Shown here one piece after another: positions 17,928 through 63,504 of a stretch of DNA of 64,000 nt (the first letter of the stretch is position 1; every line of letters begins with the position of its first letter). Below the pieces are notes generated by a model, which did no database searches, was not told the origin of the DNA, and saw nothing but the letters and a program-made list of their open reading frames with translations. A program made the translations under genes and the position numbers. Origin of the DNA: Cristatella mucedo (lineage: Eukaryota; Bryozoa; Phylactolaemata; Cristatellidae); NCBI GenBank assembly GCA_009760855.2, contig WPIO01000003.1, forward strand, positions 3,696,001 through 3,760,000. Reading direction: 5' to 3'.

Positions 17928-18171
17928 CTGGGTGGATGCAGAGGCAGCAGTCCTCCGACGAGTTCATCCGGTTCCATGACTAGTTTCGTGTGCCAAAGCG
18001 GTTCATTTTTGAATGGGCATCGTCATAGCCAGATGGCAGGGAATGCCATAGAAAATTATCACGACGAAAATGATAAGCAACAGTGAGAGGCCTAACGGCC
18101 AAGAGCTGAGCTGCCAGTCGATCGACAGCCGAGTCCCAGCGACCGACGATTTGACATCTGAGAAAGAAGGT

Positions 18172-19540
18172 CTTTCGGCAGCTTTTGATACCATCGATCA
18201 CAAAGTTCTTCTGGAGCGCCTCTCATCTCGCATGGGCATCACTGGCACTGCTCTGCAGTGGTTCAGGTCCTATCTCAGTGAGAGACTCCAGAGTATTGAC
18301 GTGAATGGACAAAGATCATCTGAAGTACCTCTGAAATATGGAGTACCTCAGGGCTCCATTCTAGGTCCGGTTCTTTTCACGGTTTATACTCTCCCTCTTG
18401 CTGATGTGATTGCCAAGCACAATCTAGGCTTTCACTTCTATGCAGATGACACTCAGTTGTACATTTGCTTTCATCCCTCCTAGCCTTCGAGCACCTCAAA
18501 TTCTCTCAACTCCCTTGCTGCATGTATTCATGACATCCGCACATGGATGGCAGCAAATTTTCTAAAACTATACGATGACAAAACTAACTTACTAGTTATG
18601 GGCAAACCCAGTGTGATTCAGAAATTGGAAAGGCTGACTCTCAAAATTGGCTCTGCCAGCGTATCTCCTGTCGAATCAGCTCGAAATCTAGGTGCCATAT
18701 TCCAAAGCAACCTCTCGTTAGACGACCATATCAGCTCCACAGTCAAATCTGCCTATTTTCAGCTTCAAAACATTGCTAAACTTCGGGCTTGTTTAGATAA
18801 GGATACCACGTCCACGTTGGTCCATGCATTCGTGACATCCTGTCTCGACTTCTGCAACTCACTGCTTACTGGCCTACCAGCATGTGCGATCAGGCGATTG
18901 CAGCTGGTGCAAACCTTCGCAGCTAGGCATGTCTGTCGTGAGTGTCGCAGTTGACACATCACTCCACTTCTCGCGACCTGCACTGGCTACCAGTCAAGCA
19001 ACGGATTGAATTTAAGGTTTTGTCACTCACTTTTAGGTCCCTTCATTCTTTGGCTCCAGCCTATCTCTCCGATATACTCCCCTATCAGGCCAAGCATCGT
19101 ACCACCCGCTTTTCGGAATCCAACAGTCTACAAATACCTCGTACAAACCTTAAATCCTTTGGAGACCGTGCATTCAGTTCGTATGCTCCCAAAGCCTGGA
19201 ACTCCCTCCCGACCTGCGTCAGAACATCCCCTGACCTGACCACATTTAAAAGGAACTTAAAAACACCTATTTAGGACAGCATTTAGTGGGTCCCTGTGAT
19301 TCGTCCTTGATGTGCTTATGCGTGCTGACACTGTGCATGCTGCCACAAACCACATTTGCATGCTGACCCTGTGCATGTCACCCCTAACCATATTATTCAT
19401 TTTTTTTGTTTTTTAAGCATGATTTTACTTGCCATCTTATTGCATTTCCCTTTGCAGCAAATGTAAAGCACCTAGAAAGAGATTAAGTTCTCCGAGGGTG
19501 CTTTATCAAGTGCATTATTATTATTATTATATTATTATTA
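18172..19540 (+). mobile_element. L2/CR1-like LINE, 5'-truncated copy A
   Basis: Encodes the back half of a reverse transcriptase: [28 protein letters not shown], then FYADDTQLY (the catalytic YADD), and later the C-terminal tail with PKAWNSLPTCVRTSPD. An in-frame TAG interrupts the ORF at 18,481, and a small deletion near 18,950 shifts the frame. The 3' UTR ends in aaagagattaagttctccga and an (ATT)n tail (19,515-19,540). The copy lacks endonuclease and the front of the RT, so it cannot move alone. It is among the least decayed copies here. Confidence 0.93.
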
Positions 19541-25708: not shown

Positions 25709-26105
25709 AAGCACCACTGTCTTTAGGTACGCTACTGATAACCTTAACAAACATTTAGTCCAGGTAGCTCTGTTAAGTTATTGATGGAGATACATCTGTA
25801 GATGCATATTTAAGTATATATTTACAGCATACATATAAGTAAATATAGAAGACTGTTGCGAAGAAGACTCCGGTCCAAAAGCCATAATTTATGCCACCAG
25901 CGACAGCCACAAGCACCACTGTCTTTAGGTACGCTACTGATAACCTTAACAAACATTTAGTCCAGGTAGCTCTGTTAAGTTATTGATGGAGATACATCTG
26001 TAGATGCATATTTAAGTATATATTTACAGCATACATATAAGTAAATATAGAAGACTGTTGCGAAGAAGACTCCGGTCCAAAAGCCATAATTTATGCCACC
26101 AGCGA
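25709..26105. repeat. Exact 202-bp tandem duplication
   Basis: 195 bp from 25,709 recur identically from 25,911 (period 202). The last part of the unit (gttgcgaagaagactccggt onward) is related to 45,270-45,360, so the unit itself contains an older dispersed repeat. Confidence 0.95.
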
Positions 26106-62295: not shown

Positions 62296-62759
62296 TATAC
62301 AGATCTGGCACTAGTAACACACTAAATAGTAAGGACTGAGCATCAAACTGTCTCACGCATTCTTCTTAACAGCATCACTGAAGCAAAAAAGCAAAGAATT
62401 ACCAGTATATTGCGTTTGAAGCATACGCTCTTAACAAACATATAGCAGGTAATGCTTAATGTAAAAACCCACCCACGGTCAGACCAGCGCAAAAAAAGAC
62501 TTCGGTCACACTCTTTTGTTATATACTGTATCCTCTAGGTCGGAATGTATAAATAAATCCACTTACATAACTAAAATGCATTGCACAGTAGGCTGCTCAT
62601 AGTACCACTACCACTATTTCACATGCCACCCCTGTTTTAAATCAAGTGACCTAGTGTCCAGTTTGTAATTGAGGAAATTTCAGTATTGCATATTCAATCG
62701 ATGGCATTTGGTGGTCTGTTGGTGCTGCTGCTGCTGCTGCTGCTGCAGCAGCCACCACC
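62296..62759. other. AT-rich spacer, then CTG repeat
   Basis: No element recognised until a (CTG)n/(CAG) stretch at 62,722-62,752, just left of the hairpin pair. Confidence 0.4.
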
Positions 62760-62801
62760 GTTGCCATGCGGCCACTGCTGCTGCAGTGGCCGCATGGCAA
62801 C
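62760..62801. other. Perfect hairpin 1 (19-bp arms, 4-nt loop)
   Basis: Left arm ends ccatgcggccactgc, loop tgct, right arm gcagtggccgcatgg and onward. All 19 pairs match. It shares the inner core ggccactgc/gcagtggcc with hairpin 2, but the outer stem differs. Confidence 0.95.
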
Positions 62802-62808
62802 ATTAGCC

Positions 62809-62852
62809 GTCATTAGCTGGGCCACTGCTGCTGCAGTGGCCCAGCTAATGAC
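62809..62852. other. Perfect hairpin 2 (20-bp arms, 4-nt loop)
   Basis: Left arm ends tagctgggccactgc, loop tgct, right arm gcagtggcccagcta and onward. All 20 pairs match. It starts 8 nt after hairpin 1 ends. Confidence 0.95.
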
Positions 62853-63504
62853 CTGGGCAAGAATCAAAGCCAAGTGCTGGCAACAGGTTGCCCCGGGCAG
62901 AGATCGTCAGCAAAAACAAGGGCTGGCTTGTTACTTTTCAGCCACTAGATGCCACTTGCTGTTTGGCCACCATCTGCAGAGCAGCCAGCCTTGGCCCAGG
63001 CCTTTTTTGTCGGCAAGGTGGCAGGCCTCAGAAAGCCTTGCCAAACCGGCTGTCCGTGCAGCTGCTGTTCCAATGGCACCCCAATGGACACAGTGACAGC
63101 TGCGTGCCACCGACGTGTGGTTCGGACTAGCTAGCATGTTTGTTCATGCACACAGCTAGGCATGCCAGCAGGCAAACCGGGTGAGCAACAGGCAGCACGG
63201 CACAGACGGGTCGGCATGCTTTCGGGAAAGAACAGCTCTTCGGCACTGTGATTCCAGGGAAAGAACCCACTAGATTCAAGTTGCTGTGACAGAAAAGATC
63301 GCAGACAGCAGTCATTCAGAGGCTGTGTGCGAGTGCTGTTGACGCAGCTACTTTACTGCAGGATGTCAGAGAGTCTGGGAACTTGGCACTGCAGGAAATG
63401 TCAACGTTGCCACTGCACCTTCGTCTATCATCAGTCATTTTTTCATAAAAATTCGAAAAACCATGCAACCTCTACAGCCGGGTCATGCTGCTGCTTTCTC
63501 TCAG
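62853..63504. other. No recognised feature
   Basis: GC-rich. The plus-strand frame that runs through the hairpins (62,686-63,096) is broken by nothing but looks like CTG-driven low complexity. Confidence 0.35.

Follow-up and report, generated by a model that had tools for sequence, protein, structure and literature searches.

Short-range template switching has been described by a four-point model (PMC7954356), and switching of this kind during replication is reported to create perfect stems in one event and to produce multibase compensatory changes (PMC8794818). Template switching is also reported to perfect the arms of inverted repeats and to invert the spacers that lie between the arms (PMC8604942). 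Among the microinversions that separate human and chimpanzee, described lengths are 17–33 nt and each is flanked by inverted repeats; for many of these, the authors find simple template switching a difficult explanation and prefer microhomology-mediated break-induced replication (PMC8755829). Foldback at breaks is reported to leave inverted duplications of mostly 5–34 bp, and the same source credits the Mre11 nuclease with the ability to process hairpins with loops of up to about 8 nt (PMC11724301). Lastly, small inverted triplications have been described near microsatellites in cancer genomes and in yeast (PMC13334657).

Here we describe two adjacent, perfect hairpins with a common centre, located in a 64-kb window (that is, the whole stretch of DNA that was analysed, 64,000 nt). 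We interpret the pair as a neutral scar of template-switch mutation, left during replication or break repair by whichever route, and assign this reading a probability of roughly 0.8. A limited literature search, which is no proof of absence, found no published description of paired hairpins with a common core.

Results

Structure and rarity of the paired hairpins

Hairpin 1 (62760–62801) is paired at 19 of 19 positions and hairpin 2 (62809–62852) at 20 of 20, with 7 nt between them. The arms lie at 62760–62778 and 62783–62801 in hairpin 1, and at 62809–62828 and 62833–62852 in hairpin 2; both hairpins close on the loop TGCT (62779–62782 and 62829–62832). Their common centre is a 22-nt core, GGCCACTGC-TGCT-GCAGTGGCC, identical at 22 of 22 positions between copy 1 (GGCCACTGCTGCTGCAGTGGCC, 62770–62791) and copy 2 (62820–62841). 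Outside this core the two stems are unrelated: outer arm A (GTTGCCATGC, 62760–62769) and outer arm B (GTCATTAGCTG, 62809–62819), compared outward from the core, have 0 of 10 positions in common, and 4 under the best ungapped shift. Each outer arm nevertheless has its full partner, as A' (62792–62801) is the exact reverse complement of A over 10 nt and B' (62842–62852) that of B over 11 nt, which is what a template switch would leave. The layout of the 93 nt is A-core-A'-filler-B-core-B'. A preliminary description had given arms of 19 and 20 bp, the loop tgct, a common inner 9 bp and a spacing of 7 nt, and had stated that the outer stems differ yet are fully paired; we confirmed all of this exactly (39 of 39 pairs).

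Perfect inverted repeats with arms of at least 10 bp and loops of at most 60 numbered 173 in the window, and 11 of these were left after simple repeats had been removed. The twin hairpins alone among the 11 had arms of at least 12 bp. Three hairpins with a score of at least 13 were present in the window, compared with none in five dinucleotide shuffles of it; shuffling erases genuine repeats and elements, and the comparison sets a bound on chance alone and none on inverted repeats of other biological origin.

An imperfect (CTG)n hairpin immediately precedes hairpin 1, at 62709–62759 on the + strand (DNA fold −17 kcal/mol, z −2.75), and possibly creates a setting prone to stalling and foldback. 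Inverted repeats of 9 bp with loops of 3–8, similar to the core that we assume below for the ancestor, occurred at five other places in the window. A Pfam scan that covered 20 of the 44 open frames listed at 120 aa or longer yielded a reverse-transcriptase fragment and two matches below the cut-off; it gave no match for the open frame that spans the hairpins, and identified no gene in the hairpin region. The reverse-transcriptase fragment (RVT_1, E 1e-12) was located at 18070–18480 of the window. At 25709–26105 a 202-bp unit was present twice with 100% matches, probably through recent tandem duplication.

A proposed reconstruction from a single copy

A history of duplication followed by inversion reproduced 93 of the 93 bases. 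The ancestor would have been a single A-core-B' copy, in which the core, with 9-bp arms around a 4-nt loop, formed a short quasi-palindrome next to the CTG tract. The 43-nt A-core-B' unit would have been duplicated in tandem, together with a 7-nt, partly copied filler (GGCTAAT before inversion). A 46-nt stretch that takes in the first core's right arm, the second core's left arm and everything between them would then have been copied from the opposite strand and thereby inverted. In the product each core would stand between an arm and that arm's reverse complement; the same letters would also come from one compound event that involved several switches of strand. Such a history accounts for the perfection of both hairpins, for their common core and different outer stems, and for the presence of the filler alone between them. 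Moreover, identity between the hairpins falls abruptly from 100% to chance outside the core, which argues for backward copying of neighbouring sequence rather than stepwise compensatory evolution.

The filler (ATTAGCC, 62802–62808) appears to have been partly copied as well. Six of its seven bases, together with the preceding base (CATTAGC, 62801–62807), are repeated in the adjacent sequence at 62811–62817. Only 58 of 20,000 random fillers had a 7-mer in common with either adjacent arm, in a test that was chosen after the repeat had been noticed.

We parsed positions 62740–62872 (the hairpins with 20 nt added at either end) into copied pieces from five hypothetical ancestors. Three pieces were needed from the duplicated ancestor (equivalent to one inversion) and three from an ancestor with hairpin 1 already formed, five from each of two half-hairpin forms, and six from the unduplicated ancestor. 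Because both three-piece ancestors presuppose an earlier event, duplication plus inversion was favoured, not proved, and the route is not unique. We give this route about even odds; its ancestor, direction, number of events, enzymes and neutrality are what we infer from the letters.

The template-switch reading also covers a second route, which we hold more tentatively. Two separate template switches by foldback, each producing a backward copy of an arm already present, could have acted on a direct repeat (GGCCACTGCTGCT) that stood behind two different sequences. Five pieces then sufficed to spell the observed letters; the 94-nt ancestor included 40 nt of flank, and in it the 7 nt between the hairpins were original. 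Single hairpins of like form do exist elsewhere in the genome, in locus L026 (20 bp, 4-nt loop) and in locus L008 (13 bp, 4-nt loop, same inner 8 bp and loop). However, separate foldbacks require a pre-existing short direct repeat and two events 7 nt apart, and they leave the CATTAGC repeat across the gap unexplained.

Some evidence weighs against a scar by any route. That all 39 pairs are intact implies youth, conversion or selection. The human–chimpanzee microinversions, at 17–33 nt, also count on this side, given their authors' doubts about simple template switching for many of them (PMC8755829). In addition, because Mre11 is reported to process hairpins with loops of at most about 8 nt (PMC11724301), foldbacks with 4-nt loops might be expected to have been removed.

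The core sequence in the genome and beyond

We searched the 572-Mb assembly (688 contigs) for the core. The exact 22-nt sequence occurred in the two copies described here alone; with two mismatches it occurred at six other places, one of which (C656, in L008) retains every arm pair. The 601 bp around the hairpins had no match but itself among the best candidates scored, very common words being skipped. An exact search for the inner 16-mer gave 10 places, including the two here, versus four for a reversed control pattern, and the 16-mer is therefore not far above background. Seven of its eight other sites lacked any pair beyond the pattern, whereas the remaining one (the C656 site, L008/L034) had a perfect 13-bp stem. 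This hairpin (L008:5174–5203) has the inner 8 bp and TGCT loop of the twin hairpins, different outer pairs and unrelated surroundings. Seven further pairs at one of eight sites exceed chance, so the site is a real hairpin, and we interpret it as a further foldback that formed at a CTG-like tip. We also considered whether the core founded a family of repeats, and rejected this given the six two-mismatch places and the unpaired flanks at seven of the eight 16-mer sites.

These searches bear on a further explanation, that of a mobile palindromic element resembling mitochondrial double-hairpin elements or GC clusters. The locus does consist of two GC-rich hairpins in tandem, and such elements are reported from mitochondria (PMC5910586, PMC4478555). 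But with the exact core at this place alone in 572 Mb, no paired flank at seven of the eight other 16-mer sites and no flanking direct repeat visible by eye, we consider a mobile element very improbable. The earlier suggestion of a foldback element end is not supported: no other copy was found in the assembly and no flanking direct repeat was seen by eye.

Outside this genome, the exact core was absent from the viral contigs searched, and phage records gave no match. The prokaryote collection contained one exact match, in Pontibacter (L041:4272–4315), where it sits at the centre of a perfect 20-bp hairpin; the outer arms there are different, and six T follow the hairpin (pairs counted by eye). 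Judging from its sequence, we take the Pontibacter hairpin as a terminator-like coincidence. Considered together, the L008 and Pontibacter stems leave room for the core sequence itself being linked to hairpin formation.

Other hairpins in the genome

Our sample comprised 190,000 fetched bases (including 7,500 N), or 0.03% of the genome, that had not themselves been picked for a core match, some of them adjoining places that had. Six hairpins (score at least 13, loop 3–20) were present, versus none in 950,000 shuffled bases (five shuffles). The sequences and loops of the six are unrelated, and four of the six carry mismatches (1, 1, 2 and 8). The hairpin at L026:6880–6960 has a perfect 20-bp stem and a 4-nt loop, an 11-nt bulge separating the stem from a further 7 pairs, and L039 contains a perfect 14-bp hairpin. 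The two hairpins in L010 and the one in L012 have 1, 2 and 1 mismatches, and the sixth is a 56-bp, element-like inverted repeat with 8 mismatches in L037. The L026 hairpin has AGCTAATG in common with arm B', probably by chance.

Loci fetched for a core match contained further hairpins, among them a perfect 25-bp stem in L021, with arms that are partly CCG repeat, and, in L036, a 19-bp stem that has one mismatch. A wider scan of 330,216 bases, with the window and overlapping loci included, gave 20 entries, and three Markov simulations gave 0 each; among the 20, two stand for places that appear twice, two belong to a single tandem array and three come from the window. In L023 (4020–4473) we observed a tandem array of a 10-bp, palindrome-containing unit (CTTCGAAGGG).

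Unrelated, partly mismatched hairpins would be the remains of a mutational process with subsequent decay, but they do not prove such a process. Their recurrence also bears on the possibility of an assembly or sequencing artefact. The 93 nt are shorter than common read lengths, contigs of up to 15.8 Mb suggest long reads, and similar hairpins recur elsewhere, some with mismatches; an artefact is accordingly a very improbable source of the pair. Hairpin copying, one of the origins put forward in the preliminary description, gained support from the abrupt core boundary, the exact reconstruction, the partly copied filler and the unrelated short-loop hairpins elsewhere, some of them decayed.

Tests for RNA genes

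Animal microRNA precursors have stems of about 33–35 bp that include a lower stem, and Drosha needs this lower stem; pre-miR-451 is a Dicer-independent hairpin of about 42 nt. We weighed whether the locus could be a pair of functional short hairpin RNAs, for example of the 42-nt miR-451 type, or structured UTR elements, kept by selection. Hairpin 1 has 42 nt, 19 bp and a 4-nt loop, close to the size of pre-miR-451, and the folding of 62700–62900 is extreme (RNA z-score −9.6 on the + strand and −9.0 on the − strand). The host is also probably a bilaterian animal, to which group let-7 is, to our knowledge, confined: the let-7 model matched the genome at 58.6 bits (cut-off 53.5) and was absent from 14 control genomes. 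A second let-7 match, at C660:663345–663413, scored 45.6 bits, below the cut-off, and was about equal on both strands; that site may therefore be another near-perfect palindrome.

However, Rfam returned 0 matches at the gathering score, so that neither hairpin falls into a described family of microRNA precursors at that score, and ARAGORN found no tRNA or tmRNA. The stems, at 19 and 20 bp, stop abruptly at both sides and offer no lower stem for Drosha; the preliminary description had likewise remarked that they are shorter than typical animal microRNA precursors. No second copy was found in the 572-Mb genome, the outer stems have nothing in common, and unrelated hairpins of similar shape occur elsewhere. 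A functional RNA pair is thus improbable. The earlier proposal that the stems are selected as RNA or as a cruciform likewise found no support, given the missing Rfam match and second copy, the unpaired flanks at seven of the eight 16-mer sites, and the short stems.

Discussion

When the two sides of a stem have changed in step and stayed paired, this is usually taken as a sign of selection on RNA structure. At this locus, two hairpins with different, fully paired outer stems could come from one or two mutations without selection, and the locus is a caution for covariation arguments. It is doubtful, in our opinion, that an unusually active short-loop foldback mode writes near-perfect hairpins of about 20 bp, and occasionally compound doubles, into this genome. 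If that were true, some of the hairpins may be transcribed and could provide the starting point for new small hairpin RNAs of the Dicer-independent type. A genome-wide density of such hairpins that turned out to be high by animal standards would point to a lineage in which foldback copying is easily studied.

Several known systems resemble the locus in part. Mobile double-hairpin elements and GC clusters have multiple dispersed copies, whereas here the exact core occupies one site and the 601-bp region matched itself alone among the best candidates scored. Foldback inverted insertions at breaks are alike in being very short inverted copies (mostly 5–34 bp) primed at inverted microhomology; those described were at induced yeast breaks with a 41-nt loop, in contrast to the 4-nt loops and two hairpins seen here (PMC11724301). 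Small inverted triplications, as reported, have direct duplications around inverted sequence and short reverse-complementary junctions, and often lie near microsatellites (PMC13334657). Their middle is one inverted fragment between direct duplicates (DUP/IN/DUP), but the middle here is A'-filler-B, an order that is impossible for one continuous inverted copy, and we rejected this class for the locus.

The inversion of inverted-repeat spacers and microinversion are alike in that the stretch between the arms would here be flipped exactly while the arms are unchanged (PMC8604942, PMC8755829). The yeast spacer-inversion set, as described, has arms above 9 bp and changes of 2–5 bases, whereas at this locus 9-bp arms enclose a 28-nt spacer, and the inversion would lie within a tandem duplication. 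Short-range template-switch mutations have in common with the locus the reverse-complement copy of adjacent sequence and the perfect inverted repeat that results (PMC7954356, PMC8794818). The locus departs from them in having two hairpins around one common core, for which an extra duplication or a second switch would be needed, acting on a hypothetical ancestor. We read the twin hairpins, then, as the scar of a template switch at a quasi-palindrome rich in CTG, a known mechanism in elaborate form.
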